Made by a program: the position numbers and the translations under genes. Source: Alphaproteobacteria bacterium (GTDB taxonomy: Bacteria; Pseudomonadota; Alphaproteobacteria; UBA7887). From it: a stretch of 33,568 nt of DNA. The number at the start of each line of letters is the position of its first letter. Positions within the stretch are counted from its first letter, which is position 1. The stretch is from positions 1 through 33,568 of the forward strand of contig JANQOH010000347.1 of NCBI GenBank assembly GCA_028289725.1. The letters are read 5' to 3'. Below the pieces are notes generated by a model. That model was not told the DNA's origin. It was given only the letters and a program-made list of their open reading frames with translations, and searched no databases. Below are positions 1,056 through 26,396 of the stretch, piece after piece.

Positions 1056-1094
1056 TTGGATCGCGGCACGCCGCCGCGGACGGAGATTTGTACC

Positions 1095-4000
1095 ATGCGA
1101 TTCCTTGCCATTCTTTTCGCCTTTACGTGCGCGCTTTCGTTTATCGCTGAAGCACGCGATATCGCCCCGGTTGAGGGCGGTGAGGTTACGGTGCCGCTTG
1201 CGCAATATACCGCGCTCTTGCAACAACTCGCTTTGGAACCGCGACCGGCTCCGACATCACATGCTGTCGGGCAATCGGACATAGTCGTCAGCGTGAGTGA
1301 TCAGGACGGCCGTTTCGCGGCGACCGTCAACGCAACGCTTTCGATCGAAGTATTCGAAGATGAATGGACGCTCGTCCCGATCTTGCCGCCGGGCACGGCG
1401 CTGCGCCAGGCGACGGTGGATGGGTCGCCCGTGCAATTGGTTGAAGGCCCCGACGGCCTTGGATGGAGTACCAACCAAGCCGGCACCTACGGCATGACAT
1501 TGACCTATGGCGTGAATGCTGAGCGCTACGAAAACGGCTTCGTGCTCCCGCTCGCTGTTCCGCGCGCCGCCGCGACGCAGCTAAACCTTAGCTTGCCGGC
1601 ACCCGACTTGGACGCGACCGTGGTTCCCGCGGCCGATGTCCACACGAGCCAGGGCAGTGAAGCGACCCAAGTGACCGCCTCGATCCCGGCTACCTCGCTC
1701 GTCCTCGTGTCCTGGCAGTCGGCACACATCCGGCCCTATGCCGTTAGCCGAGCGCAGTACACCGGACAGTTGCGCAACGAAACACTGGAGTGGAAAGGCG
1801 TTTTCCAAGTCCAGCTGTTCGAGAGCGGTCGGATCACACTGCCGATCTTGCCCAGCAATGTGACGCTCAACAACCTGACCATCAACGGCGCGCCCGCGAC
1901 CGTCCTTGTTCAAGACGGTCACTTCGCAACTTTGGTCCAAGGCCGCGGACTGCACAGCATCGAAGCCGCGTTTCAGGTGCCGGTGGTGACCGACAATGGT
2001 CCGCCGCAGGCGCAATTTCACATCCCGCGCATTCCAGTCTCTCGCTTCGACCTCGTGTTGCCGGGCCAAAAAGACGTGAAAGTGACCCCCGGCGTCGATG
2101 TCGTCACGACGGAACAAGCGGACGGAACCAAAGCGACCGCGTTCATCCCGATGACCAATCTGGTCACGTTTAGCTGGACGGAAGCCATTCCGACGGATCT
2201 GCGCGGTCAGGTCCGGGCGAACGCCGACCTTTACCACACCGTTCATGCCGAGGAAGGCGTGCTGCACGCGCACGCCGTGATTGCCTACGAGATCACGCAT
2301 GGTGAAGCGGAAAGTCTGATTTTGTCACTGCCGGAGGTCGCGCAAGTGAACCGAATCGTGGCGCCATCCGGCGGTGTGTCTGATTGGGCGGTGACGGGGA
2401 CCGACGAAACCGGCCGAAAATTAATCACCGTATTCCTGGAAAGGGCGATATCCGGTGGGTATCAGCTCGAGGTCTCCTACGAGCTCTTGTTGGGCGCCGG
2501 GCCGGAAGCCATGGCCGCGATTGATATTCCGCTACTGCATGCCGAGGAGGTACGGCGGCAGCGCGGCATGATTGCCTTGCTAACGGGCGACGAGTTGACT
2601 CTCACACCGGTCACGGAAGTGCTTTTGTCCGCGGTCGGTGAGAATCAGCTTCCGCCGGCGATCCGCAATCAAATCGACCTGCCCGTCAGCCACACCTACA
2701 AATATACCAGCGCATTGCCGACACTGGTGGTGGCGGCCGCGGCGCCCGAGCGCAAACAAGGCCGATTTGACGCGCAAGTCGATACCCTGATCTCGCTCGG
2801 CGACGTCACGATGAAAGGGGCCGCGACGGTCGGAATCGAGGTCAAATCCGGCTCGCTCCTGGATCTCGCCCTTCGTGCGCCCGGCAACGTCAATGTGCTG
2901 GACGTGACGAGCCCATCTTTGCGCGCATACGAGGTCCAGGAAATTGATGGCGCACAACTCATTCAATTGGCGTTTACGCGCCAAATGGAAGGTCAGTTCC
3001 GTGTTGAGATCGTCTATGAGCGGATCATGGCGAGCGGCGCGACCGGCTCAATCGTGCCAACAATTTCCGTGGCGGACGCCGAAGTCGAACACGGCCGCAT
3101 TGCGATCGAAGCGACGACGGCGGTGGAGGTGCGCGCCAGTACGGTCGAAGGGCTGTCGAATCTCGAAATCAATGAGCTGCCCCAGCAATTGGTGCTGAAG
3201 ACGACAAACCCAATTTTGCTCGCCTTTCGCTATGTGAGTGCCGAGGCGCCGGTGAAATTGGGCCTAACCATCACGCGCCACCAAGAGATCGAAGTTCAGG
3301 TCGCGGCGATCGAGCAGGCCGAATATCAAACTTTGATCACGCGGGACGGATTGTCGGTGACGACCGCACGGCTCACCGTTCGCAATAGCCGTCGCCAATT
3401 CTTGCGGCTCGATTTGCCGCCCGAGTCCGAAGTGTGGTCGGTGTTTGTCAATGGGCGCGCGGAAAAACCGGCTTATGCCGGCGAGGATCCGGCCGGCGGC
3501 GCATCGGCGGTGTTGATTCGAATGATCAATTCCGCCGACGGTTTCCCCGTCGATATCGTCTATGCCACGCCTGTCGAGGCCATGACGGAACTTGGAACGA
3601 TTTCCAGTCGTTTGCCGCGCCCGGATATGGTGGTCACGAACAGCCGGTGGGACGTCTTTCTGCCGAAGGGCCCGCGCTATCGGATGCCTGATACCACAAT
3701 GGACTTGGTGGTCCGAGGCGTACACGCGAATCCGCGCCGCATGCAGGCCGAAGCACTGGCGCGCGCCGGGGCAGACGCTCAAGCGCAATTGGGCCAACCG
3801 CTTCGCATTACCGTGCCTACGCAAGGCATCCGCTTCGGGTTCGAAAAACTCTACGCCAACGAGTCCCCCGACGAAGCCGAGTTCACGGTTCGCTACGCCT
3901 CGGCGGGGGCAAACAAGATTGGGTTGGGCGCAAGTCTCTTGGGCATGGCTCTTCTGTGGGTCGGCATCATCGCCTTGGCTGGTCGCTGGTTACCGCTGCC

Positions 4001-4184
4001 GCGATCCGGTGTCGTCGGCGCGCTCGGCGGCGGCGTGACGCTCCTGATTGCGACCATTGGCTACCTCGGCACAAGTCCGGTGCCCGCATCGATCCTTGCC
4101 GTACTAACGGCTGTCGGGTTCGGCGGCTGGGCGTTGTTTTCCAGATTCCGCGCTTGGCGCCTTGGCCGCACCGTGGCGAATTGA
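1095..4184 (+). CDS. Large exported beta-repeat membrane protein of unknown function
   Basis: This encodes about 1029 residues. The frame opens at TTG 1056, but the ATG at 1095 gives a clean signal peptide (MRFLAILFAFTCALSFIAEA), so I prefer it. The protein is mostly beta-sandwich repeats. Two successive ~170-residue units align by eye, each with a pattern like 'tLPxLPxxVxLxxxtxxGxPaxlv... xGxGxhxxxxxFxVPv' and then a 'T..I..t.lv.fSW' ending. Weaker copies follow. The C-terminus (last ~75 residues) has about three hydrophobic segments and then a basic tail, so the repeats probably face the periplasm while anchored in the inner membrane. It lies directly after the VWA gene, which suggests a two-protein surface or periplasmic complex. 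I do not recognise a named family. Confidence 0.8.
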   Translation: MRFLAILFAFTCALSFIAEARDIAPVEGGEVTVPLAQYTALLQQLALEPRPAPTSHAVGQSDIVVSVSDQDGRFAATVNATLSIEVFEDEWTLVPILPPGTALRQATVDGSPVQLVEGPDGLGWSTNQAGTYGMTLTYGVNAERYENGFVLPLAVPRAAATQLNLSLPAPDLDATVVPAADVHTSQGSEATQVTASIPATSLVLVSWQSAHIRPYAVSRAQYTGQLRNETLEWKGVFQVQLFESGRITLPILPSNVTLNNLTINGAPATVLVQDGHFATLVQGRGLHSIEAAFQVPVVTDNGPPQAQFHIPRIPVSRFDLVLPGQKDVKVTPGVDVVTTEQADGTKATAFIPMTNLVTFSWTEAIPTDLRGQVRANADLYHTVHAEEGVLHAHAVIAYEITHGEAESLILSLPEVAQVNRIVAPSGGVSDWAVTGTDETGRKLITVFLERAISGGYQLEVSYELLLGAGPEAMAAIDIPLLHAEEVRRQRGMIALLTGDELTLTPVTEVLLSAVGENQLPPAIRNQIDLPVSHTYKYTSALPTLVVAAAAPERKQGRFDAQVDTLISLGDVTMKGAATVGIEVKSGSLLDLALRAPGNVNVLDVTSPSLRAYEVQEIDGAQLIQLAFTRQMEGQFRVEIVYERIMASGATGSIVPTISVADAEVEHGRIAIEATTAVEVRASTVEGLSNLEINELPQQLVLKTTNPILLAFRYVSAEAPVKLGLTITRHQEIEVQVAAIEQAEYQTLITRDGLSVTTARLTVRNSRRQFLRLDLPPESEVWSVFVNGRAEKPAYAGEDPAGGASAVLIRMINSADGFPVDIVYATPVEAMTELGTISSRLPRPDMVVTNSRWDVFLPKGPRYRMPDTTMDLVVRGVHANPRRMQAEALARAGADAQAQLGQPLRITVPTQGIRFGFEKLYANESPDEAEFTVRYASAGANKIGLGASLLGMALLWVGIIALAGRWLPLPRSGVVGALGGGVTLLIATIGYLGTSPVPASILAVLTAVGFGGWALFSRFRAWRLGRTVAN

Positions 4185-10310: not shown

Positions 10311-10401
10311 TGGCGGAGGGGGTGGGATTCGAACCCACGGTAGGGGGTTACCCTACAACGGTTTTCAAGACCGTCCCGTTAAACCACTCCGGCACCCCTC
10401 C
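10311..10401 (-). tRNA. tRNA-Ser (anticodon UGA)
   Basis: Read on the minus strand, the 91-base gene starts with acceptor GGAGGGG and ends with CCCCTCC, discriminator G and an encoded CCA. The anticodon loop is CTTGAAA, giving anticodon TGA, which reads UCA and related serine codons. The long variable arm (about 17 bases, TGTAGGGTAACCCCCTA region) and the T arm GTGGGTTCGAATCCCAC confirm a class II serine tRNA. No integrase gene or repeated 3' end is nearby. Confidence 0.97.
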
Positions 10402-10785: not shown

Positions 10786-11334
10786 CTAGTAATTGGTCTC
10801 AAAATACTCGCGCGTAATGAACGCGATGTAGTCGTGCAAATTGTCATCGCTTTTGCCAATGGACCATCCGCCGGCCATGGCATCCGCGTCACGTTGAATT
10901 CTGGGCGCCGCGATAACCTCCCCGCCTTCCTCCTCGCTAATCTTGAGATCCAAATCGATGTTCGAATCTCCGGCGAACGCTCCGACCCAAAAGCGGGCGC
11001 CGCCGCTCACGATCCTGATCGATACCAATTCAGGTTGAACAATAAGTTTGCCGGACCGTTCAGCGGGGTCCGCACGCGACCACATGTCGAATAGCGGAAG
11101 CAATTTTTCGCTGATGTGTTCTTCGAGTATTTTTGCCTCAACCACTTTATCTGCGTCTTCGGTGACAGCCGGGCTCAAGACAAACGGTTTGAGTTCATAA
11201 TCGGCGAAGGTAGCAAAGGCTTTTGTTGGCTTGGGGAGTCTCGCAGCCTCCTCAACCGCGACCGAATTAAGCTTCTCTGGGTCTGCGGCACACCCGGTGA
11301 GAAGTAGAACCACAATGGGGAGACATTTTTTCAT
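10786..11334 (-). CDS. Lipoprotein of unknown function
   Basis: The frame is open upstream, but ATG 11334 gives a standard lipoprotein signal: MKKCLPIVVLLLTGC with lipobox LTGC (an adjacent GTG at 11337 is also possible). The mature part, about 167 residues, is rich in acidic residues and mixed alpha/beta, with a clear strand ARFWVGAFAG and a C-terminal segment ending FITREYFETNY. I recognise no family. It is transcribed away from the plus-strand lipoprotein gene at 11719, with about 384 bases between them. It probably sits in the inner or outer membrane facing the periplasm. Confidence 0.75.
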   Translation of the reverse strand: MKKCLPIVVLLLTGCAADPEKLNSVAVEEAARLPKPTKAFATFADYELKPFVLSPAVTEDADKVVEAKILEEHISEKLLPLFDMWSRADPAERSGKLIVQPELVSIRIVSGGARFWVGAFAGDSNIDLDLKISEEEGGEVIAAPRIQRDADAMAGGWSIGKSDDNLHDYIAFITREYFETNY

Positions 11335-11718: not shown

Positions 11719-12177
11719 GTGAAAATAGTGTGGCGATTTTTCGTTGGTTCGTTGTTCGCAATGTCACTGGCGGCTTGCGAGCCATTGCTGATTCCCATGT
11801 ACGAACTCAGCAATCAACCGGTCGGGTCGGCGGCGACGCAAGACGAGGTGCGCGATGCGATCGAATCCGGCGCGGCGGCCGCGGGATGGGAAACGCAGGA
11901 AGCCGGCCCTGGCAACATTTTGGCGACTTACAACATTCGTGTTCATACAGTCGTTGCGGACATTCAATACTCAGCGTCGGGCTACAGCATCAACTACGAC
12001 ACGAGCAATCAAATGAAAGTCCACTGCACGGAGGACGAAAAGAAGAACAGCCGGATAAAGATCACGAGTTCGGATATCTGCCCGGGAGGCGCCAAGCCGC
12101 TGTACATTCACAAAGCGTATAAGCAGTGGGTCGATCAGCTGGATGCGTCGATCGCCCAGGCGCTAGCCGCGGGATGA
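11719..12177 (+). CDS. Small lipoprotein, paralogue of the one at 13132
   Basis: This encodes 152 residues from GTG 11719, with a GAGGAG ribosome site (11706-11711) at good spacing. The signal MKIVWRFFVGSLFAMSLAAC ends in lipobox LAAC. The mature protein shares a pattern with the lipoprotein at 13132: 'GW...e.gpG...atynirvHT...adiQYS..gYSInY..S', then 'IHkaYkqWvdqLd..Ia.aL'. It differs in an insertion of about 25 residues that carries two cysteines (HCTEDEKK... and SSDICPGG). These may form a disulphide. Its 3' end overlaps the convergent PPTase gene by 43 bases. I do not recognise a family and the function is unknown. Confidence 0.8.
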   Translation: MKIVWRFFVGSLFAMSLAACEPLLIPMYELSNQPVGSAATQDEVRDAIESGAAAAGWETQEAGPGNILATYNIRVHTVVADIQYSASGYSINYDTSNQMKVHCTEDEKKNSRIKITSSDICPGGAKPLYIHKAYKQWVDQLDASIAQALAAG

Positions 12178-12953
12178 TCTGAGGCGAACGCACGGCTTCG
12201 GGGGCGCGATTGGTTTGAGCGAATTGGCTTAAGGGTCAGCTCGGCGTGCGGGTCATAACCCATGCCTTGGCTGGCGGGCGGCAACGCGACTGCGATTCCG
12301 AGAGCATAGTTCGTCGCGCACACGCGCTGCTCCACTAGGAACTCACGGTCGTCCAATCGCACCCGCGTGACCACCGGGTTCACATTCGTGCCGCGGAGGG
12401 GCCGCTTGTGTAGAGTGGCCAAATCGACACCGGCTGCTTTCGCGATGGCCTCGCGCATCGTCCATATTCGATAGAAGGCATTGGCGCCGCCGGCACAGAC
12501 AGCGTCAATCTCGTCATCGGCAAAGGCGAAGGCGGCAAGTGCCTCCACATCTCTGTCGGGACGGCAATGTTCGACATCGATACCGACTGCGCGGTCAATC
12601 GAGACCGCGCAGGCAATCAAGCTCTGGCTATGCGAGACGCTCACAAACGGTCGCTCGGCAAGACCATGGGGCAAACAGGACTGAGCCCGGCGCGAACTGG
12701 CGTCGAAGCGCCAAGCCTTTCCCGGTATCTGAGTCACGGTTTCGATCAAGAAGCGCAGCGCGCAACGGGCCGTTAAGCTCTGAATTCGCCGGTTTGAGGA
12801 ACGGTATCGGGCGGCGCGCCGATGGTCCTCTGATGTCGCGAAAGATGTCCGAATACGCTCGGCTTCGCGATCGTGCACGTCCGAGACCGCGACGGCAATC
12901 TCACCCTGTTCGGACTCTCGATTCAGCGCGACTGAGCTCAATATTTCAAACAT
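12135..12953 (-). CDS. Sfp-type 4'-phosphopantetheinyl transferase
   Basis: This 272-residue enzyme transfers phosphopantetheine from CoA to a serine of carrier proteins. It starts at ATG 12953 after a TAAGGA ribosome site. Signature motifs are in order: FVSVSHS (103-109), the metal-binding VGIDVE (123-128, Asp126 and Glu128) and WTMREAIAKAAG (164-175), the WxxKEA motif with Arg in place of Lys. Length and domain order fit the EntD/Sfp superfamily. It lies between two paralogous lipoprotein genes and next to the aryl polyene operon, which encodes two ACPs; a third ACP lies at 32140. Activating these is the obvious role. Confidence 0.9.
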   Translation of the reverse strand: MFEILSSVALNRESEQGEIAVAVSDVHDREAERIRTSFATSEDHRRAARYRSSNRRIQSLTARCALRFLIETVTQIPGKAWRFDASSRRAQSCLPHGLAERPFVSVSHSQSLIACAVSIDRAVGIDVEHCRPDRDVEALAAFAFADDEIDAVCAGGANAFYRIWTMREAIAKAAGVDLATLHKRPLRGTNVNPVVTRVRLDDREFLVEQRVCATNYALGIAVALPPASQGMGYDPHAELTLKPIRSNQSRPRSRAFASDHPAASAWAIDASS

Positions 12954-13001
12954 TGATCCTTAGGGATAGTCAGATTTTGACAAGCGAAATGAAACTAACA
13001 A

Positions 13002-13031
13002 TTGTGACTTGGCTGGCATATGCAATATATA
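13002..13031 (+). promoter_or_regulatory. Possible sigma-70-like promoter upstream of the lipoprotein and pathway operon
   Basis: TTGTGA (13002-13007) is followed after 18 bases by TATATA (13026-13031), 100 bases upstream of the lipoprotein start in the divergent gap between it and the PPTase gene. The spacing and AT-rich setting fit a promoter, but many alphaproteobacterial promoters are weakly conserved, so this is only a candidate. Confidence 0.22.
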
Positions 13032-13131
13032 CGAAAAGAAAAAGAGACCGGTTCGGTCCGCGTCGGATTGCGTGGTTCTGTGTGAATGGTTTGAGAATTT
13101 GGAACACACTCGTCACGGCTGGGGGAATGCC

Positions 13132-13539
13132 ATGCGAAATTTGCAGTATCTTGTCGCGATCTTCGTCTCATTCGCGGTGCTTAGCGCGTGCACGCGAGAC
13201 GCACCGATTTACAATGTGAACAGCCACCCAGTGCCTCAGCCGGCGCAAGCCCTTTCGCTCACGGAAATCAAGAATATCATTATGTTGGCGGGAGCGGACC
13301 GTGGTTGGGTAATGGAGGAACAAGGTCAGGGAAGATTAGCCGGCACCTTGCTCGTAAGAACCCACACGGCAAAAGTAGACGTGCAGTATTCACAAACGGA
13401 ATACAGCATCCAATACAAAGACAGTGATAATTTACGCTATACGGGCTCAACAATTCATCGAAATTATAACAAGTGGATTATGAAACTTGAGCAGGACATC
13501 GAACGCGACCTCCAAAGAAAAGCGCTCCAACGGCAATAG
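13132..13539 (+). CDS. Small lipoprotein, paralogue of the one at 11719
   Basis: This encodes 135 residues. The upstream in-frame start at 13009 is unlikely; ATG 13132 gives the signal MRNLQYLVAIFVSFAVLSAC with lipobox LSAC. The mature part shares with the 11719 protein a GW motif (DRGWVMEEQG), RTHTAKVDVQYSQTEYSIQYKDS and IHRNYNKWIMKLEQDIERDL. It lacks the cysteine-bearing insertion. It is the first plus-strand gene before the aryl polyene operon and is probably co-transcribed with it, since the next coding frame starts at or overlaps its 3' end. Function unknown. Confidence 0.8.
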   Translation: MRNLQYLVAIFVSFAVLSACTRDAPIYNVNSHPVPQPAQALSLTEIKNIIMLAGADRGWVMEEQGQGRLAGTLLVRTHTAKVDVQYSQTEYSIQYKDSDNLRYTGSTIHRNYNKWIMKLEQDIERDLQRKALQRQ

Positions 13540-13594
13540 TCCGTCATTTGGTAGGGAGTCAGGTCGCGCGGATATTGGCACACCCATAATCGAT

Positions 13595-14311
13595 TTGACT
13601 GTGACTGCTTGGGCGGCTTGGACACCAGGCGTCGTGACGCAAAAAGATTGGCGCGCGTGGTGCCACGGGTGCCTGGACATGCCGGACGATGACAACAGCC
13701 AGCCCGACTTGCCGGAAGTGCCGATGATGATGCGCCGGCGCTTAAACAGAATGGGCCGGATGGCCGCCCGCGTCGCCTACGATGTCGGAGGGCTAGACGA
13801 AGCCGTCATTGCATATTGTTCGCGATACGGTGATAGCGTTCTGACCTTGTCGCTACTCGATGACATTGTCGACGGTGAATTACCATCGCCCGCGGGCTTC
13901 AGCATGGCGGTCCACAATGCGATCGCAGGCTGGCTATCGATTGTTGCAAAGAATAGGAATGCGCACACCGCGGTTGCGTCGGGTCCCGAAAGCCTTGCGG
14001 CCGGTTTGCTGGAGGCGTCCATGTTGATCACGGAGCAACCTGACCGCGCCGTGATGGTGCTTTATTGCCACGAACCCTTGGCACCGACCTATCGGAAATT
14101 TCAAAGCCCCAGTGATCGGCCCATTTCTTTGGCATTGATGGTCGGTCGAACGCAGACGCGCGCCGGCATTCATTTGTCAGCAAAGCCGCGAAATAGTGGC
14201 GGGAACGATGCGACAGAACCGGAAGCGTTGTCCTTTATCCGGTTTCTCCTGTCTGCTCGGCCAGAAGGGACGTTTGCCGGCGTAGGCCTTGAATGGATGA
14301 GGATGGCGTAG
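13595..14311 (+). CDS. Ketosynthase-like chain length factor (PF13723-type) of the aryl polyene pathway
   Basis: This encodes 238 residues from TTG 13595; the frame is open back to 13487 (TTG, overlapping the lipoprotein) and a GTG at 13601 is also possible. The start TVTAWAAWTPGVVTQKDWRAW and the run PMMMRRRLNRMGRMAARVA match beta-ketoacyl synthase N-terminal-like chain length factors. Where a true ketosynthase has its catalytic Cys, this has AVASGPESLAAGLLEAS, so it cannot condense chains on its own. In aryl polyene systems the homologue (ApeC) pairs with a full ketosynthase; the partner here should be the protein at 24751. It is the first gene of the operon core. Confidence 0.85.
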   Translation: MTVTAWAAWTPGVVTQKDWRAWCHGCLDMPDDDNSQPDLPEVPMMMRRRLNRMGRMAARVAYDVGGLDEAVIAYCSRYGDSVLTLSLLDDIVDGELPSPAGFSMAVHNAIAGWLSIVAKNRNAHTAVASGPESLAAGLLEASMLITEQPDRAVMVLYCHEPLAPTYRKFQSPSDRPISLALMVGRTQTRAGIHLSAKPRNSGGNDATEPEALSFIRFLLSARPEGTFAGVGLEWMRMA

Positions 14312-14313
14312 CG

Positions 14314-15108
14314 ATGTCGGCCGTGGCGCGTCAGGCTAACTATGCCTGGAGGCTATTCGGCACCGGGTCGGCGTTTCTCTTGTTCAGTCTGGGAGGCGCT
14401 TTGATGTCGGTGACGGTGTTTCCCCTCATCAATCTGGCCGTCCCAAACGATATCAGTCGCGTTTCCCTGACCCGGCGTGTCATCCGAGGTTCATTTCGGC
14501 TGTTTGTTGGCTTTCTTATCGGCATGGGCATTATTCGGTTTAGCGTGCGTGGCTCGGAACGTTTGCGCGAACTGAACGGCGCGATGGTGATTGCCAATCA
14601 TCCGTCATTGTTGGACGTGGTTTTGCTCATGTCGCTAATGCCTGAGGCGCAATGCGTCGTTAAGTCGAGATTATGGCGCAATCCGTTTCTCGGCGGCGTT
14701 GTGCGCGCGGCCGGTTACGTCAGAAATGACGGTGATCCGGAAGCACTGCTCGACGACTGTGTCGACGCGTTAAATGGCGGCCAAAACCTGGTCATTTTTC
14801 CCGAAGGTAGCCGGAGTGTCCCCGGGGAAAAGCCAAATCTCAAGCGCGGGTTTGCTCATGTCGCGTTGCGCGCGGAAGCTGATATTGTACCGATCGCGAT
14901 CTCTTGCAAACCAACCACGCTAACCAAGGGCGAACCATGGTACGCGATTCCGGAACGCCGCATTGTTTATCAATTTGAAGTCTTGGAGCCGATAGAAATA
15001 CGCGCGTATGCCAACCTCGACGTGCCAACGATCGCAGCGCGCAGGCTCTGCCAAGACGTCGACCGGATTTTCGAAAGAGAGCTGGGCTATGAGCGACCTG
15101 GAGCTTGA
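14314..15108 (+). CDS. 1-acyl-glycerol-3-phosphate acyltransferase-like (PlsC/LPLAT) enzyme
   Basis: This encodes 264 residues from ATG 14314; a GAGG site upstream favours this over ATG 14293, which would overlap the previous gene. Two hydrophobic segments (about 12-40 and 62-75) place it in the inner membrane. The acyltransferase motifs are present: NHPSLLD (H96-x4-D101) and FPEGSRSVPGE (near 167-177). LPLAT enzymes acylate glycerolipids. In aryl polyene operons such an enzyme is thought to help attach the polyene acid to a lipid or make its acceptor; that link is inference. Confidence 0.9.
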   Translation: MSAVARQANYAWRLFGTGSAFLLFSLGGALMSVTVFPLINLAVPNDISRVSLTRRVIRGSFRLFVGFLIGMGIIRFSVRGSERLRELNGAMVIANHPSLLDVVLLMSLMPEAQCVVKSRLWRNPFLGGVVRAAGYVRNDGDPEALLDDCVDALNGGQNLVIFPEGSRSVPGEKPNLKRGFAHVALRAEADIVPIAISCKPTTLTKGEPWYAIPERRIVYQFEVLEPIEIRAYANLDVPTIAARRLCQDVDRIFERELGYERPGA

Positions 15109-15361
15109 AATAAAATCTTTGATAATCGAGACGCTGAATCTGGAGGAAATTGGGCCTCAGGATATCGACAGTGCCGAGCCGCTTTTTGTGGAAGGTTTGG
15201 GCTTGGATTCGATCGACGCGCTGGAACTCGGTATGGCCATTCAGAAGACATACGGACTTAAATTCGATCCAGACAAGGACGACGTAAAATCGCATTTCGC
15301 GAGTGTCCGGAATCTGGCCCAGTTCGTTGCCGCGGGTACCGGAAAGGCCGCATCTGAATGA
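15089..15361 (+). CDS. Acyl carrier protein 1 of the pathway
   Basis: This encodes 90 residues. ATG 15089 overlaps the 3' end of the acyltransferase gene by 20 bases; longer frames give an unlikely N-terminus. The phosphopantetheine site is GLGLDSIDALELG, with Ser41. The four-helix ACP layout is clear (helix 1 DLELEIKSLIIETLNLEE, helix 2 SIDALELGMAIQKTYG). Its stop overlaps the start of the next ACP gene, so the two are translationally coupled. By family knowledge of aryl polyene systems, one ACP carries the growing chain and both may be loaded from the aromatic starter ligase at 16156. Confidence 0.92.
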   Translation: MSDLELEIKSLIIETLNLEEIGPQDIDSAEPLFVEGLGLDSIDALELGMAIQKTYGLKFDPDKDDVKSHFASVRNLAQFVAAGTGKAASE

Positions 15362-15603
15362 CACGGGACGAAATTTTCGCGACGCTGAAGAAATATCTCC
15401 ACGAAATCTTCGAAGTTGCGGAGTCCGACATCACGCTTGAATCGCGATTGGTCGAGGACTTAGACCTCGACAGTATCGACGCCGTCGACTTGATGGTGAA
15501 GCTTCAGGAATTGACGGGGCGAAAAATTCCTCCGGACGAGTTCCAGACCGTCCGGACGGTGGGCGATGTTGTTGAACGGGTTCATACGCTTCTCAGTGCG
15601 TAA
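15358..15603 (+). CDS. Acyl carrier protein 2 of the pathway
   Basis: This encodes 81 residues. ATG 15358 overlaps the stop of ACP 1 (ATGA). The attachment site LVEDLDLDSIDAVDLMVKL has Ser39. Helix 1 reads EIFATLKKYLHEIFEV. It differs clearly from ACP 1, so the two likely have distinct partners rather than being a recent duplicate. Family precedent is a pair of ACPs (ApeE/ApeF type) in aryl polyene operons. Confidence 0.93.
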   Translation: MTRDEIFATLKKYLHEIFEVAESDITLESRLVEDLDLDSIDAVDLMVKLQELTGRKIPPDEFQTVRTVGDVVERVHTLLSA

Positions 15604-16159
15604 GAAGCGGGTTCTCGGCATTGTCTTTGTCTGCGTCAGCATTCTCTACCCGTTTCTGGTTTATTTTGGTCTTAGCCACGTCGGCCCCTCAACGATCGTC
15701 GTGATTCTTCTGTGCCTGCTAGCCTGTCGAACGCTTTGGTCCAGCGAGGAGCGGGGCCTGCCCATCAGATCAACCTCTGTCATTGCCCTGGCCGGCATAG
15801 CGGGCCTGTTTCTAATCGATAGCGTGGCCGCGGTGCGCGCGTATCCGGTTTTAATCAATTTGGGGTTGGCGCTGGTATTCGCGCTATCGCTCATGAATCC
15901 GCCATCGGCGATCGAGAGGATCGCGCGTTTGACGGAACCTACCCTTGATGATTTCGGCGTTGCATATACTCGAAAAGTGACGTGGGTGTGGTTGGCCTTT
16001 TTCCTTGGCAATGGAACTATTTCGGTGTGGACGGCGGTGTACGGCACGCTCGATCAGTGGACGCTATACAACGGCGTGATTAGCTATCTTCTCATCGTAT
16101 TGCTCTTCGCTGGCGAGTATTTGGTTCGCCGCACAGTTCGGTCGCGTGCGAAAACATGA
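15596..16159 (+). CDS. Inner-membrane protein, COG4648-type, of the aryl polyene operon
   Basis: This encodes 187 residues from GTG 15596, overlapping the ACP gene by 8 bases. The start has Lys/Arg (MRKKRVLG) followed by a hydrophobic helix, and about five or six membrane segments are spread over the sequence. EPTLDDFGVAYTRKVTWVW and LGNGTISVWTAVYGTLDQWTLYNGVISYLL are typical of the small membrane protein found in aryl polyene and xanthomonadin operons (COG4648). Its biochemical role is not settled; it may act in translocation or as a scaffold for the acyl carrier step. It overlaps both neighbours, so it is clearly part of the operon. Confidence 0.85.
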   Translation: MRKKRVLGIVFVCVSILYPFLVYFGLSHVGPSTIVVILLCLLACRTLWSSEERGLPIRSTSVIALAGIAGLFLIDSVAAVRAYPVLINLGLALVFALSLMNPPSAIERIARLTEPTLDDFGVAYTRKVTWVWLAFFLGNGTISVWTAVYGTLDQWTLYNGVISYLLIVLLFAGEYLVRRTVRSRAKT

Positions 16160-17871
16160 GCGGTTACATACCGCTTGCAGAAATCATGAGCCGGCGGGGA
16201 TCGCCGGAGCGTACGGTGTGCCGCCGCGCCTCGGACCCGATCCCTCTGAAGCAACTGCAATCTGACGTCGCTCACAATTCGGTTCGGTTGAAGCAATGCG
16301 TGGAACCGGGCGCAGGCGTGCTGCTGACATGTTCCGATAGCTATTGGTTTGTGGCCGGGCTTTGGTCGGCACTTTACGCGGGTGCGCGTGTGATTTTACC
16401 ACCGAATGTTCAGCCTGGGACCATCGATGAGTTTCATCGTCGCGCCGCCGTTACGGTTCAGGACGCAGGTGCGCACAATGTTCCGAACAGGTTTGTTTGC
16501 GAACCGGGATCGCAGGTGGGTCATTTAGAGCCGTTGGATGCGGCCGACTGCCTATTGGAGTTCTTCACCTCGGGTTCGTCGGGAGAACCGAAATGCGTTG
16601 CGAAGACCCTCAAGCAGTTGGAGGTGGAAGTTAGAGACCTCGACGAGCAATGGGGGCGGGACGTGGGCGACGGATTGGTGCTCACGACCGTTTCACATCA
16701 ACACCTATACGGGCTTACGTTCGGTTTGCTCTGGCCGATCGCGTCTGGACGTCCCTTTGATGTCGAAATTCACCGGATTTGGGAAACCCTGATCAAGCGG
16801 CTTGAAGTCGGCAGCGTGATAGTGTCCAGCCCGGCCCACCTAAGCCGAATGCCGGACCGGCTTGCCGATCAGGTCAGCCAAGAACCTCAGACAGTCCTGT
16901 CCGCGGGCGCGCCACTACCGTGGTCATCCGCGCAGTCCTGTTTTGAGAATTTCGGGTCCTGGCCACTGGAAATATATGGCAGCACGGAAACCGGCGGCGT
17001 CGCCTATCGCCTGCGGTCGTCCGAGGATCCGGCATGGACACCCTTTCGCGGCGTCGAGGTTCGTCCGGGTGCGGAAGGCGTTCTAGCAATTCGGTCGAGC
17101 TATTTGCGTGATCCATCCTGGCATGATCTCGACGATAAAGTTGAGTTCGAGACCGACCGGACTTTCCGGTTAAAGGGCCGCACCGATCGCGTGGCAAAAG
17201 TTGAAGGAACACGCGTCTCTCTGACGGATTTGGAGGCACGCATCATCGCGCTCGCGGACTTCAGCGACGCGGCGGCCGTGGTAATCGACGGCCCGTCGCC
17301 AACGATTGGTGTCGCAGGTGCTTTAAGCGATGTTGGTCGCCGCCGGCTTGCGGAACTCGGACCATTCCGGTTTGGGCGCCGGACCAACGCAAATTTGCGG
17401 CAGCATTTCGAACCGGCAAGCCTACCACGAAGATGGCGCTATATTGACCGCATCCCGACAAACGAACAAGGCAAGCGCGTAACGAGCACCATCAGTAAGT
17501 TGTTCGAGATGAAACCGACCAAGAAACTCACGACGCCAGACGTAAAGGGTATTCGACGATCCGACGAGGGCATCGAGATCGATTTATTCATACCCGGCGA
17601 GATTATGTATTTCGAAGGGCATTTCCCGGACCTGCCAGTTTTACCCGGGATCGTCCAGCTCGATTGGGCTGTTATTGAAGCCAGACGGCATTTCGGGTTG
17701 AGCGCGCCAGTCACCAATGTACAAAATCTCAAATTCCGAAAACTACTTCGGCCTAATACCGACGTTACTTTGACGCTGCGCCATCGCGCAGAAGACGATC
17801 GATTTATCTTTGAGTATCGAGATGGCGAAACGGTCTATTCGTCCGGTCGCTTTGTTTTTGCCGCGACATGA
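16156..17871 (+). CDS. AMP-ligase fused to hotdog dehydratase (ApeH-ApeI-like)
   Basis: This encodes 571 residues from ATG 16156 (ATGA overlap). Residues about 1-450 are an adenylating ligase: P-loop FTSGSSGEPK (137-146), YGSTETGG (274-281) and the catalytic lysine in NEQGKR (Lys440). Residues about 455-571 are a FabA/FabZ-like hotdog domain with YFEGHFPDLPVLPG (485-498; His489) and FRKLLRP. In E. coli and Xenorhabdus aryl polyene clusters these are separate genes, ApeH and ApeI; here they are one protein. The ligase should activate an aromatic acid such as 4-hydroxybenzoate and load it onto an ACP. The dehydratase half removes water after ketoreduction, and may pair with the second dehydratase at 25943. 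Confidence 0.93.
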   Translation: MSGYIPLAEIMSRRGSPERTVCRRASDPIPLKQLQSDVAHNSVRLKQCVEPGAGVLLTCSDSYWFVAGLWSALYAGARVILPPNVQPGTIDEFHRRAAVTVQDAGAHNVPNRFVCEPGSQVGHLEPLDAADCLLEFFTSGSSGEPKCVAKTLKQLEVEVRDLDEQWGRDVGDGLVLTTVSHQHLYGLTFGLLWPIASGRPFDVEIHRIWETLIKRLEVGSVIVSSPAHLSRMPDRLADQVSQEPQTVLSAGAPLPWSSAQSCFENFGSWPLEIYGSTETGGVAYRLRSSEDPAWTPFRGVEVRPGAEGVLAIRSSYLRDPSWHDLDDKVEFETDRTFRLKGRTDRVAKVEGTRVSLTDLEARIIALADFSDAAAVVIDGPSPTIGVAGALSDVGRRRLAELGPFRFGRRTNANLRQHFEPASLPRRWRYIDRIPTNEQGKRVTSTISKLFEMKPTKKLTTPDVKGIRRSDEGIEIDLFIPGEIMYFEGHFPDLPVLPGIVQLDWAVIEARRHFGLSAPVTNVQNLKFRKLLRPNTDVTLTLRHRAEDDRFIFEYRDGETVYSSGRFVFAAT

Positions 17872-19562
17872 CCTTTAGCCCGTGCGCGGTCATACCGAGC
17901 CGCAATCATTACCTTGGCATCGAATTGTTGGTCGCGCGCCTTCGTGCCGAGGGGTTGCCGATTATCATTGTCGATGATGCCAGTTCCGAACCGGCGCGAT
18001 CCACGCTTGCCCAACTTGATAATGAGGATGACCAGATTTCGGTCATCCGAAACGACGTAAATCGCGGCAAGGGCGGCGCCGTCCTGCGCGGCATCGAAGC
18101 GGCTGTCGATCGTGGCTTCTCACATATCGTGCAAATCGACGCTGACGGCCAGCACGATTTGGAGGCCGTGCCCGCGCTTGTGGACCTGGCCCGCCATAAC
18201 CCCGATGCGGTGGTAAGTGGCGTACCGGTCTATCGCGATGGCCAGGCGATCGGACGACGGCTTGCGCGTTGGCTCACCCACGTCTGGATTTGGGTGGAAA
18301 CCCTGTCTTTTCAGATTCGCGACGCCATGTGTGGGTTTCGCGTATACCCGGCTTCGGCCGTTCTGGAGGTGGCGCGCGACGAGCCGCTGGGCCGGTGGAT
18401 GGATTTCGATCCCGAGATCTTGGTGCGCTTGTTTTGGCGCGGTGTCCCGATCGCGCCTCTTCCGGTGAATGTGAAGTACATCGAAGGCAATCCTTCTAAT
18501 TTCGCATTGATCCGTGACAACTGGCGGATCACCAGAATGCATTTTCGGCTCGTCTTTACGATGTTGGCGCGGCTTCCGACCATTTTGCGCAATCGGCCGC
18601 GCCGAATTCGTCAGACCGATGACCACTGGTCCGAATTCGAGGAACGCGGCCTCTATCTCGGGTTGAGAATTCTGGCTTGGATTTATCAATTGCTGGGCAA
18701 GCGCATATGCTTAGCCATCATGGCGCCGGTCGTGCTGTACTTTTACGTGAGTGGCGGGGCGCAACGCCGGGCGTCCGAAGCCTATTTGCGACGCATTGGC
18801 CAGGCCCGAGGCAACCCCTTTCGCCGTTTGCGTTTATCGAGCTTCAAACATTTCTTCCATTTTGCCGCCCTCTCTCTCGACAAGTTTGCCGCATGGACAG
18901 GCGACGTAAGCGGGGAGACGATCGTATTCGAAGACCTTGCCGCCATCGATCGCCTAACTGAGCGCGGTGAGGGCGTGCTGGCTCTCTGTTCGCATCAGGG
19001 AAATGTCGAGTTGAGCCGAGCAATGTCCCGGGCCCTTCATGCGGGGCTTGTGGTCAATATTCTGGTGCATACGAAGCATGCCGCGCGTTTCAATCGCCTC
19101 ATTCAGAAGTTCAATCCTGAGGCCGGCGTCAACGTGGTCCAAGTGACCGAGGTCGGACCGGATACCGCGCTCGACCTGAAACAACGGATCGAACGGGGTG
19201 AGTGGGTCGTCATCGCCGCAGACCGCACTGCGATTGCAAGCGCAGGGCACTACAGCATGGCGGAGTTTCTTGGCGCACCAGCGCCGTTTCCGCATGGCCC
19301 TTTCATCATTGCAAACTTACTGAAATGCCCCGTTTACCTGCTGTTTTGCATAAGGGAGGGCGCACGATATCGTTTGTACTTTGAGCCGTTCGCCGACCAA
19401 GTCAGATTGGCTCGTAGCAATCGGATTAACGATTTGAAGGCGCTGACGCGGCGTTTCGCGCAACGTCTTGAGCATTACTGCCTGTTGGCACCGCTGCAGT
19501 GGGGTAATTTTTACGATTTCTGGGCGGTTCCATCGAACGAACCCGAGAACGCCAAGGGATAG
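17868..19562 (+). CDS. GT2 glycosyltransferase fused to LpxL/HtrB-like acyltransferase
   Basis: This encodes 564 residues; ATG 17868 overlaps the upstream stop. Residues 1 to about 230 are a family 2 glycosyltransferase, with VDDAS (35-39) and DADGQHD (91-97) as the nucleotide-sugar and metal site. After a linker, residues about 260-560 match the lauroyl/myristoyl acyltransferases of lipid A: one membrane segment near 278-295 and the motif SHQGNVE (H376-x4-E381). This two-domain form is standard in aryl polyene operons (ApeJ-type). It is taken to glycosylate and acylate during assembly of the membrane-anchored pigment; exact acceptors are inferred, not seen. Confidence 0.92.
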   Translation: MTFSPCAVIPSRNHYLGIELLVARLRAEGLPIIIVDDASSEPARSTLAQLDNEDDQISVIRNDVNRGKGGAVLRGIEAAVDRGFSHIVQIDADGQHDLEAVPALVDLARHNPDAVVSGVPVYRDGQAIGRRLARWLTHVWIWVETLSFQIRDAMCGFRVYPASAVLEVARDEPLGRWMDFDPEILVRLFWRGVPIAPLPVNVKYIEGNPSNFALIRDNWRITRMHFRLVFTMLARLPTILRNRPRRIRQTDDHWSEFEERGLYLGLRILAWIYQLLGKRICLAIMAPVVLYFYVSGGAQRRASEAYLRRIGQARGNPFRRLRLSSFKHFFHFAALSLDKFAAWTGDVSGETIVFEDLAAIDRLTERGEGVLALCSHQGNVELSRAMSRALHAGLVVNILVHTKHAARFNRLIQKFNPEAGVNVVQVTEVGPDTALDLKQRIERGEWVVIAADRTAIASAGHYSMAEFLGAPAPFPHGPFIIANLLKCPVYLLFCIREGARYRLYFEPFADQVRLARSNRINDLKALTRRFAQRLEHYCLLAPLQWGNFYDFWAVPSNEPENAKG

Positions 19563-19572
19563 GCGAAACTAC

Positions 19573-19980
19573 ATGATTTCCGCAGATATCCAAGTCCGAG
19601 CCCACTTCTATCATTTGGATCCCATGAACATTGTGTGGCATGGCAATTATGCGACGTTTCTCGAGGAAGCGCGGTGCGAGCTACTCGAAAAAATCGACTA
19701 TGACTACGATCAAATGGCTGAATCCGGTTACCTTTGGCCAATCGTTGATATGCGAATTAAGTATGTTCGCCCGATCAAGTTCCGCCAAGATGTACGGGTT
19801 CGCGCCACGCTGAAGGAATTCGAAACACGCCTTAAGATCGACTATTTGATTAGCGATGCCGAGACCGGCGAACGATTGACCCGCGCCCATACGGTTCAAG
19901 TGGCCGTCGACGCGGCAACGCAGGAAATGTGCTTCGAGTCGCCCGCGGTTTTTCGTCGGAAGGTCGAAGCTCTTCTATGA
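19573..19980 (+). CDS. 4-hydroxybenzoyl-CoA thioesterase family protein
   Basis: This encodes 135 residues from ATG 19573. The frame is longer upstream, but this start places the signature VRAHFYHLDPMNIVWHGNY at the normal position, with the catalytic-type Asp16. EEARCELLEKIDYDYDQM and a central beta-strand set complete the single hotdog fold of YbgC/FcbC enzymes. It probably releases a product or edits a mischarged acyl group from an ACP or CoA. It corresponds to the thioesterase (ApeK-type) of aryl polyene operons. Eleven bases separate it from the previous stop; its own stop overlaps the next start. Confidence 0.9.
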   Translation: MISADIQVRAHFYHLDPMNIVWHGNYATFLEEARCELLEKIDYDYDQMAESGYLWPIVDMRIKYVRPIKFRQDVRVRATLKEFETRLKIDYLISDAETGERLTRAHTVQVAVDAATQEMCFESPAVFRRKVEALL

Positions 19981-20612
19981 GGCGCGCCGGGTATCACGTT
20001 TTCGCCGTAGCGGCGGTTTGCATTTTCGCGTCGGCCTTGTTGGCGGCGGGCCCCAGCCTTGTTGTAGAACCAGACCAGGTGTTGCGCGGACGCTTTGAGC
20101 AGCAACGTCAACTGAGTGGATTCGAAACGCCGTTGGTGTCGAATGGCCGGTTCGTTGTCGTGGGGGACCGTGGCGTACTTTGGCGAACCGAAGATCCGCT
20201 ACAGTTTGATCTGGTGATCACACCGTCTCGGTTCGTGCAAGTATTGCCGGGAGAACCGCCGGTGGATGTGGTGCCGGCCGAAGCGGCGACTATAGATATT
20301 TTTGGCATCATCACGGGATTGTTGCGCGGCGCGCCGGCCGACGAGATGGATGCGGCATTTCACATCGTGTCCACGGAAGTCGCCGGAACTTCGTGGGCTT
20401 ACGCGCTGACACCGAAGTCGGAATATCTGACCAAACAAATGGAAGCGATATCGGTTGCCGGTTCGGATTTTGTGGAGAATGTTGAGGTGCGGAAGCCGAA
20501 CGGTGACCGAGATACCCTTAGTTTCACCGATCACGTTTTGTCTGATCGATCCTTGACGGATGATGAAGCTGCACTGCTGGACATTGTTTACGGAAGCGCT
20601 GCAGCGCCGTGA
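19977..20612 (+). CDS. LolA-like outer membrane lipoprotein carrier protein
   Basis: This encodes 211 residues from ATG 19977, which overlaps the thioesterase stop. The N-terminal signal is MRRAGYHVFAVAAVCIFASALLAAG. The pattern LRGRFEQQRQLSGFETPLVSNGRFVVVGDRGVLWRTEDP is the defining start of LolA-type proteins, which hold a lipid in a half-barrel and carry it across the periplasm. SLSFTDHVLSDRSLTDDE-type acidic sequence follows near the C-terminus. In aryl polyene operons this protein (ApeL-type) is thought to move the lipid-linked polyene from the MMPL exporter to the outer membrane. Confidence 0.92.
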   Translation: MRRAGYHVFAVAAVCIFASALLAAGPSLVVEPDQVLRGRFEQQRQLSGFETPLVSNGRFVVVGDRGVLWRTEDPLQFDLVITPSRFVQVLPGEPPVDVVPAEAATIDIFGIITGLLRGAPADEMDAAFHIVSTEVAGTSWAYALTPKSEYLTKQMEAISVAGSDFVENVEVRKPNGDRDTLSFTDHVLSDRSLTDDEAALLDIVYGSAAAP

Positions 20613-22966
20613 GGCTGGCTTCGGCTCTCTTTTGGCTTGTTCTCGTCGGTGGCTCCTTGGTCCATGTCGCGGACCGATTTCGTGATGGTGTTGCGCTCTC
20701 ATCAGATCTGATGGCTCTCCTGCCGGAAGAAGATGGCCAAAGTGTTAGAGCGGCCGTCAGCCAAGCCAGCGCGGATAGTCTGTCACGAGACATCATGTTC
20801 CTATTTGGTCATGAAGACGCGGCTGTGGCCGAGTCTACGGCCGCCGCGTTTGCGCGCGCGCTTGCGGATAGCGATTTGATCTCGGAAACCGGTGATCAAA
20901 GCCGCCGCGCGGCTGAACAAGAACTGAGCGCGCTCTTGTTCAGACATCGCTCCGGGCTGCTCTCCGATACGGACCGTCTCGTTTTACGATCGGGCCAGGT
21001 TTCGGCTTTGTATCAGCGCGCGCTCGCGCAGATTTTTTCACCCATCGGGTCCGTCGATTCGCGACTCTTGCTTGCTGATCCGTTTCAGCTGTTTTTCAAT
21101 TACGTCGCCACGCTTGGCGCTCTCAGAGATAGTCTTGTTTCTTCGGCGGGCGGTACCGTATCCGGGTCCAATGGCAAGACCTATGCGGTCGTCTCGGCGA
21201 AGTTGGCGGGCGAACCCTACGCGCTTTCGTTCCAACGCCGATTCATGGCTTGGTTCGACTCATGGGAAGCGGCGCACACCGCCACGCTTTCGGGCGATGG
21301 ATCCGCAATCGAGATCTTGCGTGCCGGCGCGATTTTCTATGCCTACGAGGGAGCTCGGCAAGGTCTCAATGAGGCGACGGTCATCGGCGGTTTTGCGCTC
21401 GTCGGCGTAATCGTACTTGTCCTCCTGGCATTCGGCAGTTTGCAGCCGATCGGTCTCACCCTTCTGTCGATTTTGTCGGGTCTCATTGTTGCGCTGTCGG
21501 TCAACTTACTGGTTTTCGACAGCCTCCATTTCATCGCGGTGTTGTTCGGCGCCGGGCTCATTGGAATTTCGGTCGATTATTCCCTGCACTATTGCTGCGA
21601 GCGATTTGGTGCTGTCGCGAAACCGCGGGAACGACTCGACAATATATTGCCGGCGGCAACGCTCGGCTTAGTGACGTCCAGCATCGGGTTCTTGACGCTG
21701 GCATGGGCACCGTTTCCCGGTCTGCGGCAGATTGCGCTATTTGCCGCGATTGGCTTGGCGGCGGCTTATCTCACCGTGGTGATCTGGTTTCCTGTGCTCG
21801 ACCGATCACCAGATCGAAAAGCCAACGCTTGGCTGATGCGCGTGGCGACGGAGCCAAGAGCGCTTTGGCACGACGGAACGAGGCGCCTTTATCGGTATGT
21901 GGCCTTGGCCGTGCTCGCAGTTGCTGCGATCGTCGGCGGTTCCGCGCTCAATGTCTCAGACGATCTCCGACGGTTTCAGGCTTTGTCGGCCGATCTGGTC
22001 TCGCAGGAACAGGCGATCCGGGAAATCACAGGATTGGAACCAGGTCTGCAGTTTTACGTTGTTACCGGCTCGTCAGACGAAGAGGTTTTGGCGACAGAAG
22101 AACTCTTGCGCGAGCGATTGGCGGCATTGCGCGAGAGGGGTGGAGTCACGAAAGTCCTAGCGATCAGTCAATTCGTCCCGTCCGAGGCGCGTCAGGCCGA
22201 GAATGCGGCCCTTGTCCAACAACATCTAGGGACAGCTGCTCGAGAACGGTTAAGAGCCGACACAGGCTTGCCAATTGACATCGATGATGCGCCAGAAAAT
22301 GGCCCGGCCTTAACTCTGGATGAATTTCGTGCCCATGCCCCGCGTGCCCTCGTCGATCTGCTGATCCCCAACCTTGGCGTGGACCAACACGTGAGCATTG
22401 TTCTGCTCCGCGGCGTGTCTGATGTCGATAAGGCCCAGGCCGCCGCCGCGGACATCCCGGGCGTGGAGTATGTCGATCCGGCAGCCGACATCAGTGCCTT
22501 GTTCCGGACATATCGCAAGGTCGCGCTGATTTTGCTGGGCGTTTCGGTCTTGGTGATGGTGCCGGTCTTGGTGTGGCGCTATCGCCCACACGGCGCCTTC
22601 CGGATACTTCTGCCGCCCGTTGCGTCGGTCGTGATCGCGCCTTGCGTCGTCGCGTTGACCGGCGAGCCCATCACCTTCTTCAATGTGATGGCATTAGTGC
22701 TGGTGTTCGCAATCGGGATCGACTACGCGTTTTTTTGTCGCGAATCGCACCCGTCTCGGCTCAATATCAACGCCCTAGCCAATGGCTTGGCGGCAGCGTC
22801 GACGATTTTGTCGTTCGGATTGCTCGCATTCAGCGGAATTCCCGTGGTTCACTCGTTCGGATTGACCGTATTTGTCGGTATCTTGATCGCATTTTTGCTG
22901 GCGCCGCTCGCCGAACGGACGAACGGCAAGGACGAGGGTCTTGGTGGCAGCGCACGAAACACGTGA
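20609..22966 (+). CDS. MMPL/RND-type exporter
   Basis: This encodes 785 residues from GTG 20609 (GTGA overlap). The layout is one N-terminal helix, a periplasmic loop of about 240 residues, a bundle of six membrane helices, a second loop and another six-helix bundle, i.e. the usual 12-helix MMPL plan. Proton-relay-type motifs GISVDYSLHY (first bundle) and FAIGIDYAFF (second bundle) are present. Proteins of this group export lipids or polyketide-lipids; here it should extract the finished aryl polyene lipid from the inner membrane for the LolA-like carrier made by the preceding gene. Confidence 0.94.
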   Translation: MRLASALFWLVLVGGSLVHVADRFRDGVALSSDLMALLPEEDGQSVRAAVSQASADSLSRDIMFLFGHEDAAVAESTAAAFARALADSDLISETGDQSRRAAEQELSALLFRHRSGLLSDTDRLVLRSGQVSALYQRALAQIFSPIGSVDSRLLLADPFQLFFNYVATLGALRDSLVSSAGGTVSGSNGKTYAVVSAKLAGEPYALSFQRRFMAWFDSWEAAHTATLSGDGSAIEILRAGAIFYAYEGARQGLNEATVIGGFALVGVIVLVLLAFGSLQPIGLTLLSILSGLIVALSVNLLVFDSLHFIAVLFGAGLIGISVDYSLHYCCERFGAVAKPRERLDNILPAATLGLVTSSIGFLTLAWAPFPGLRQIALFAAIGLAAAYLTVVIWFPVLDRSPDRKANAWLMRVATEPRALWHDGTRRLYRYVALAVLAVAAIVGGSALNVSDDLRRFQALSADLVSQEQAIREITGLEPGLQFYVVTGSSDEEVLATEELLRERLAALRERGGVTKVLAISQFVPSEARQAENAALVQQHLGTAARERLRADTGLPIDIDDAPENGPALTLDEFRAHAPRALVDLLIPNLGVDQHVSIVLLRGVSDVDKAQAAAADIPGVEYVDPAADISALFRTYRKVALILLGVSVLVMVPVLVWRYRPHGAFRILLPPVASVVIAPCVVALTGEPITFFNVMALVLVFAIGIDYAFFCRESHPSRLNINALANGLAAASTILSFGLLAFSGIPVVHSFGLTVFVGILIAFLLAPLAERTNGKDEGLGGSARNT

Positions 22967-24176
22967 CGTCGCGGTCATCGGCGCCGGACCGGCCGGCGCG
23001 GTGGCGGCCGTCATGCTGGCGCGTCGCGGCACGGATGTTTTGGTTCTCGAAAGAGAAACGTTTCCGCGCTTCAGCATCGGTGAAAGCCTGTTGCCGCAAT
23101 CCATGCCGGTCTTGGAGCGTGCGGGCGTCATCGGTGCGGTAACCGATCACGGTTTCCAACTCAAAAACGGGGCATCGTTTCGGCGCGGCCCCAAGACCAG
23201 CGTGATCGATTTTCGAGAAAAATACACCGAAGGTTGGGGAACAACCTTCCAAGTCCAACGTGCGACGTTCGACAAAATTCTCGCCGATCAAATCGAACCG
23301 GTCGGCGGCGCGTTGCGTTTCGGCCAGACCATCACCGGCGTGGCGTTCGATGCGCGTTCCGCGGTGCTGAATGTACGCGACAGGGCCGGTCGTGATTACG
23401 AAGTCCGCGCGCGGTTTGTCCTCGACGCCAGCGGATTCGGGCGCGTGTTGCCAAGATTGCTGGGACTTGAAGAAGACGCGAAGCTGACCAATCGGCAAGC
23501 GTTATTCGTTCACGTTCGCGATCGGATCACCGATGAGCAATTCGACCGAAACAAAATTCTGATCACGGTACATCCGGACGAGCCCGATATTTGGTATTGG
23601 TTGATCCCGTTTTCGGATGGCACGTCCTCGCTCGGGGTGGTCGGGCGTCCGGCGCAAGTGGCGGCACGCGGCACTGGGCATCGTGACCAGCTTTGGGGAT
23701 TGGTGACCGAAGCTGTAGAACTGAAACAGCTGCTGAATGACGCTGAAGAAACTCGGGACGTCGGCAGCATTGCCGGATATTCGCGCCGTGCCTCGGCATT
23801 GCACGGACGGAATTACGCATTACTTGGCAATGCCGGAGAATTCTTGGACCCGGTTTTCTCGTCGGGTGTGACCATCGCGCTGAAATCCGCGGATTTGGTC
23901 GTCGATCCCGTTATGCGGCACTTAGCGGGCAAAACTGTCGACTGGGAAGAAGAGTATTCGAAATCTCTGCGCGTGGGCATCGACACATTTCGGCACTTTG
24001 TCCAGGCTTGGTATGACGGTTCGCTCCAAAAGATCATTTTCAGTACGCCTGGCGACAATCACTCCATTCAAAGAATGGTCGTGTCCGTTTTGGCAGGTTA
24101 CGCTTGGGATCAGAGCAATCCGTTCGTCTCCGAAACCGAGCGATATTTGTCGGCCTTAGCGGGCCAACTGTCCTAG
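22944..24176 (+). CDS. FAD-dependent oxidoreductase with flavin-halogenase motifs
   Basis: This encodes 410 residues from GTG 22944, behind a GAGGG ribosome site and overlapping the exporter gene. The FAD-binding start is VAVIGAGPAGAVAAVMLARRG (GxGxxG at 13-18), followed by FPRFSIGESLLP. GFQLKNGASF has a Lys74 at the position of the catalytic lysine of flavin halogenases. WYWLIP (217-222) fits the WxWxIP motif characteristic of those enzymes. GNAGEFLDPVFSSG near 292-305 is the second FAD motif. The nearest guess is a halogenase acting on the aromatic ring or polyene, as in brominated xanthomonadins. A hydroxylase or inactive homologue is possible; motif evidence is good but not proof. Confidence 0.85.
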   Translation: MAAHETRDVAVIGAGPAGAVAAVMLARRGTDVLVLERETFPRFSIGESLLPQSMPVLERAGVIGAVTDHGFQLKNGASFRRGPKTSVIDFREKYTEGWGTTFQVQRATFDKILADQIEPVGGALRFGQTITGVAFDARSAVLNVRDRAGRDYEVRARFVLDASGFGRVLPRLLGLEEDAKLTNRQALFVHVRDRITDEQFDRNKILITVHPDEPDIWYWLIPFSDGTSSLGVVGRPAQVAARGTGHRDQLWGLVTEAVELKQLLNDAEETRDVGSIAGYSRRASALHGRNYALLGNAGEFLDPVFSSGVTIALKSADLVVDPVMRHLAGKTVDWEEEYSKSLRVGIDTFRHFVQAWYDGSLQKIIFSTPGDNHSIQRMVVSVLAGYAWDQSNPFVSETERYLSALAGQLS

Positions 24177-24178
24177 AT

Positions 24179-24754
24179 GTGCGACTGACATTTTTTTCAT
24201 TAATTGGATTACTAATGATCGCGGGCTGCGTGAAGGATCCACCGCTTCCAAGTGCGCGGATCGCGCCCGGGGTGAGTTTCTCCTTGCCGCCCCTTACCGG
24301 CGACATGGCGTCGATAGAAGCCGCGCAGGCCGTGCTTGGTGAGGCGGGCGGATCGCCGGTTCAGTTCCAATCGCAAATCAAGGCGGCGGATGGAAAGGTC
24401 GTCGTGGTGATGGTCGATCCCCTCGGCCGGCGCGCGTTGGAAATCGAATGGAGCGCCGACGGCATCGCAATCGACGCCGCGCCGTGGCTGCCTGAGCAAG
24501 TCCGGCCTCTGAATGTTCTGGCCGACATTGTGATCGCGCACTGGCCCGCCGAGGCGGTGAGAGCGGGTCTGGCCGAGACCGGTGCACGCTTGCGCGTTGC
24601 CGGCAATGCGCGCGAGATTGCGATGGCGGACGACCTGCTCATGCAAGTTGAGTATGGGGAGGATTTTCAGCCCCCGTGGCATGGATCTCTGGTGGTTCGC
24701 AATTTCGCTTTAGACTATAGCCTTAAGATAATATCGACGCCGACAGGCCCATGA
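24179..24754 (+). CDS. DUF3261-like lipoprotein of the aryl polyene operon
   Basis: This encodes 191 residues. GTG 24179 gives MRLTFFSLIGLLMIAGC with lipobox IAGC, whereas longer frames lack a signal. The mature part has PWLPEQVRPLNVLADIVIAHWPAEAVRAGL and a C-terminal beta segment ending near YSLKI, typical of the DUF3261 lipoproteins found in these operons. It is expected at the outer membrane, receiving the lipid or anchoring the pigment. It begins 2 bases after the halogenase-like gene stop and overlaps the next start (ATGA). Confidence 0.8.
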   Translation: MRLTFFSLIGLLMIAGCVKDPPLPSARIAPGVSFSLPPLTGDMASIEAAQAVLGEAGGSPVQFQSQIKAADGKVVVVMVDPLGRRALEIEWSADGIAIDAAPWLPEQVRPLNVLADIVIAHWPAEAVRAGLAETGARLRVAGNAREIAMADDLLMQVEYGEDFQPPWHGSLVVRNFALDYSLKIISTPTGP

Positions 24755-25941: not shown

Positions 25942-25942
25942 G

Positions 25943-26392: not shown

Positions 26393-26396
26393 ACTG

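Follow-up and report, generated by a model that had tools for sequence, protein, structure and literature searches.

The locus described here raises the question of what two small, related lipoproteins are doing on either side of a phosphopantetheinyl transferase (PPTase) gene, at the edge of a pigment operon, and whether their tie to the aryl polyene (APE) genes is more than chance. The window, that is, the whole stretch of DNA that was analysed (33,568 nucleotides), corresponds to the full length of contig C232, which belongs to an alphaproteobacterial draft genome of 84% completeness. The relevant features, with the basis of each assignment, are as follows:

11719–12177, + strand: second, diverged ApeA-family lipoprotein, 152 aa, GTG start, lipobox with Cys20 (ApeA homology; profile)
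12025–12108 (approximate limits), + strand: insert region with C103 and C121, between the last beta strand and the C-terminal helix (alignment; model)
12135–12953, − strand: Sfp/HetI-type 4'-phosphopantetheinyl transferase (Pfam ACPS, PF01648, 1.5e-10; NCBIfam HetI-like, 1.3e-21, below the equivalog cut-off)
13132–13539, + strand: ApeA, envelope lipoprotein, first gene of the APE operon, 135 aa (homology to ApeA of E. coli CFT073; directly upstream of apeC)
13487–14311, + strand: ApeC, ketosynthase chain length factor (tblastn with E. coli ApeC, 2.8e-13; Pfam Ketoacyl-synt_2, 2.4e-47); the real start is probably downstream of 13487
14293–28348, + strand: remaining APE operon, namely ApeD, E, F, G, fused H-I, J, K, L, M, an FAD halogenase-like enzyme, N, O, P, Q and R (tblastn with E. 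coli Ape proteins; Pfam)

The lipoprotein pair

The two lipoproteins (11719 and 13132, both on the + strand) are paralogues, as had been proposed from the sequence in an earlier note: an alignment of 127 residues shows 26% identity (the E value of this single comparison is 7e-16), and their mature parts gave an alignment score of 140, whereas none of 2,000 shuffles scored above 67. Both reading frames are intact, and each protein carries a lipobox (LAAC in the 11719 protein, LSAC in the 13132 protein) with Cys20 as the mature N-terminal residue. All of the shared motifs named in that note were recovered: GW, RTHTAKVDVQYSQTEYSI in one copy and RVHTVVADIQYSASGYSI in the other, and the endings IHRNYNKW and IHKAYKQW. 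The extra segment in one copy, estimated there at about 25 residues, was located in the 11719 protein, where it comprises 24 residues and contains both cysteines. The PPTase gene does lie between the pair on the opposite strand. It converges on the 11719 gene, with which it shares 43 bp at the 3' ends, and a divergent intergenic region of 178 bases separates it from the 13132 gene. No further copy was found in the draft genome.

The 13132 gene is apeA

The protein encoded at 13132 is ApeA, the product of the named first gene of widespread APE clusters. It is 35% identical over 126 residues to ApeA of E. coli CFT073 (c1204 / C_RS05650, WP_000833175.1; E 8e-28), and its gene immediately precedes apeC, which is the position of apeA apart from the missing apeB. 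Both proteins are lipoproteins encoded at the 5' end of an APE operon and share the IH-x2-Y-x2-W ending, whereas the CFT073 cluster differs from the present one in having a single ApeA, no insert, ApeB between A and C, and no PPTase. The window holds a complete APE cluster: 17 E. coli Ape proteins were matched in order when searched against it by tblastn, ApeB being the only one without a match in the window. Among Alphaproteobacteria, ApeA proteins of Thalassospira (L060, L065) and others are up to 45% identical to the 13132 copy, and the gene order is the same (divergent PPTase, then apeA, apeC, apeD, apeE and apeF); unlike here, these loci hold one ApeA copy only.

The earlier note had suggested an APE-linked accessory role not previously described. 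The APE link stands, on homology, gene context and co-occurrence; the novelty does not, since apeA is named, the protein has been listed as a lipoprotein, and a deletion phenotype has been published, for E. coli only, in which ΔapeA cells keep their pigment and contain immature APE acids, the main mature APE lipid being missing (Johnston et al. 2021, PMC8253772). ApeA-type proteins are annotated as hypothetical in public records, and neither the two proteins nor 54 relatives matched any family in Pfam or NCBIfam, which is probably why the pair was taken for undescribed. Sequence searches of the PDB with the lipoproteins likewise gave no match.

Association of ApeA with aryl polyene genes

Widely occurring homologues with no tie to APE clusters or PPTases would have made the association one of chance, as the earlier note had pointed out; co-occurrence was found to be far above that level. 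When 385 genomes of the class, chosen regardless of APE genes, were searched with profiles, ApeA was present in 20, the APE dehydratase ApeP above its cut-off in 19, and both in 13, against 1.0 expected (Fisher 3.5e-15; the ApeA profile derives mostly from APE-linked members). Seven ApeA genomes were without ApeP above the cut-off, and in five of these APE or APE-like genes flank apeA; the other two (G065 and G106, 2/20 of the ApeA-positive genomes) have neither ApeP nor nearby APE genes. When named genomes were scanned with sequence patterns, 72 ApeA loci were obtained, of which 62 lay inside APE clusters, a share (86%) that is biased upward by patterns derived from APE-linked ApeA proteins; nine of the ten loci outside APE clusters were tested, and in all nine genomes ApeP was present elsewhere. 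The scan of the genome collection was built from four sequences. Taken together, a functional tie of the lipoproteins to the APE operon is strongly supported.

Four Shewanella loci (L115, L122, L124 and L125) carry ApeA homologues apart from any APE genes; in the three tested (L115, L122 and L124), ApeP was found elsewhere in the genome.

The 11719 gene and its insert

The 11719 protein is 30% identical to E. coli ApeA (E 1e-17) and matched the ApeA profile, which includes the 11719 sequence itself, with an E value of 5.3e-37. It retains the W, R, H, S, IH, Y, W and L core positions, among them every invariant position (W, S, I, H, Y, W, L) of the 54-member alignment; the invariance of IH-x2-Y is inflated by the way in which the relatives were found, the 11719 copy itself having been found otherwise. 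The loop from the conserved S to the I measures 33 residues in the 11719 copy and 9–11 in the other 53 aligned members. Because the core residues are kept, the short S–IH loop is treated here as a common and not a defining trait, and the long loop marks the 11719 copy as a variant member of the family. It is an old, diverged second ApeA, and the unusual part of the locus is this extra copy and its two-cysteine insert only; no description of the duplication itself, or of the disulfide-capable insert, was found in the literature consulted. No new system is revealed, the locus combining a known gene with an unusual, old second copy.

Second copies of ApeA occur sporadically in other genomes: in tandem in a deep-Baikal gammaproteobacterium (L174, G413), as two copies near the cluster edge at L031 (G184), on a different contig in G423, and as a truncated protein of 97 aa encoded 53 kb away in G353. 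The deep-Baikal locus resembles the present one in having more than one ApeA in a single APE-like cluster with a PPTase, and differs in that its copies are close together, in tandem and without the two-cysteine insert. In a further genome (G268) the single apeA (C1:880252-880649, − strand) is interrupted by a frame change or stop that breaks it into two parts.

Predicted fold

The model of the 13132 protein is confident (pLDDT 95); it opens with short strands and a helix, continues as a sheet of four strands and closes with a long C-terminal helix beginning at the IH motif. The model of the 11719 protein has its elements in the same order, with a confident core and an insert of lower confidence (pLDDT about 55–66). 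The earlier note had suggested testing for a lipid-binding fold, and the models speak neither for nor against one: in Foldseek comparisons with the PDB, KA1 domains scored best, BamC lower, and Bet v 1-like structures also appeared, yet all matches were weak (TM-score to the query at most about 0.5, no E value below 0.001; the known lipid-binding folds considered were KA1, the helix-grip fold of BamC, and LolA/LolB).

Origin of the second copy

It is quite conceivable, at somewhat less than an even chance, that the 11719 copy was acquired by transfer from another APE lineage and did not arise by duplication in place; its function might then still be the one proposed below. In neither of two trees (about 125–130 columns) was it placed beside the 13132 copy, and the G+C content of the latter gene is 0.49, against 0.58 for the whole window. 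The trees are, however, poorly resolved, and a sister pairing of 11719 and 13132 was not rejected (AU p 0.35).

That the 11719 copy survives only by chance from a duplication, without function or drifting, appears unlikely. Its long branch, the lack of any close relative among the sequences found, and the truncated copy in G353 would fit such a relic, but the gene has an intact frame, a ribosome-binding-like GAGGAG, a signal peptide and a lipobox, and its protein combines all of the invariant core residues with a confidently modelled core.

Proposed role

Very probably, a complete APE cluster with its own PPTase carries at its 5' edge a canonical ApeA (13132) together with a second ApeA (11719) that is old and diverged, both proteins being envelope-anchored helpers of late APE-lipid assembly. 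The PPTase would act in the cytoplasm by arming ApeE and ApeF, which are carrier proteins, and would have no direct business with the lipoproteins. ApeA would be exported and lipidated at Cys20; as there is no Asp at position +2, its probable destination is the outer membrane. There it may aid a late step, with ApeM, ApeL and ApeN as putative partners, in which the finished aryl polyene acid is joined or handed onto its lipid and lodged in the outer membrane; we infer both this site and the exact step. The second copy would most likely do a related job, as a partner or as a specialised version. Its long loop is predicted to lie beside the most conserved site of the family and could be pinned by a disulfide.

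A more specific version, in which the 11719 copy is a neofunctionalised, disulfide-looped partner of ApeA (for example, for a halogenated aryl polyene) and the two proteins form a two-subunit lipid-attachment or insertion factor, is speculative and has a low probability. For the proposed helpers of APE-lipid assembly, the analysis provides a family alignment, a confident fold, a measure of co-occurrence and the names of a few genomes in which second ApeA copies occur naturally; ApeA marks a step in that assembly, and its family has no Pfam or NCBIfam model in the libraries scanned.

The PPTase neighbourhood

In 12 of the 20 ApeA-positive genomes of the class, apeA has a PPTase reading frame directly beside it, so that this arrangement is common. 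In one genome (L024, G051) the single apeA lies on the far side of the PPTase, like the 11719 gene here, from which it follows that both slots are used in nature and that both are filled in the present genome. The E. coli and Vibrio clusters have no PPTase beside apeA; the E. coli APE cluster lacks a PPTase, and AcpT is used instead (PMC8253772).

A direct mechanistic link between the lipoproteins and the PPTase, as suggested by the wording of the earlier note, is highly improbable and was rejected: the neighbourhood does recur across Alphaproteobacteria, but the PPTase is predicted to be cytoplasmic and the lipoproteins periplasmic, and ApeA is often encoded without an adjoining PPTase, as in many APE clusters, among them those of E. 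coli and the Vibrio loci. The neighbourhood is attributed to both genes being needed by the same cluster.

Other features of the window

Scans for promoters and terminators gave no signal above chance. ApeH and ApeI, which are separate genes in E. coli, are fused at 16156–17871 (AMP-binding and ApeI-like dehydratase). Between ApeM and ApeN, at 22941–24176, an FAD-dependent tryptophan-halogenase-like enzyme is encoded, which suggests an altered head or chain of the aryl polyene. Outside the cluster, an open reading frame of 1042 residues without a Pfam match was found at 1056–4184, and a tRNA gene lies immediately beyond the cluster at 10314–10401 (− strand). A DUF4410-like lipoprotein, below the Pfam cut-off, adjoins the cluster at 10786–11331 (− strand); in another genome, a homologue of it is encoded about 1.5 kb from apeA (L030:11676-12137).
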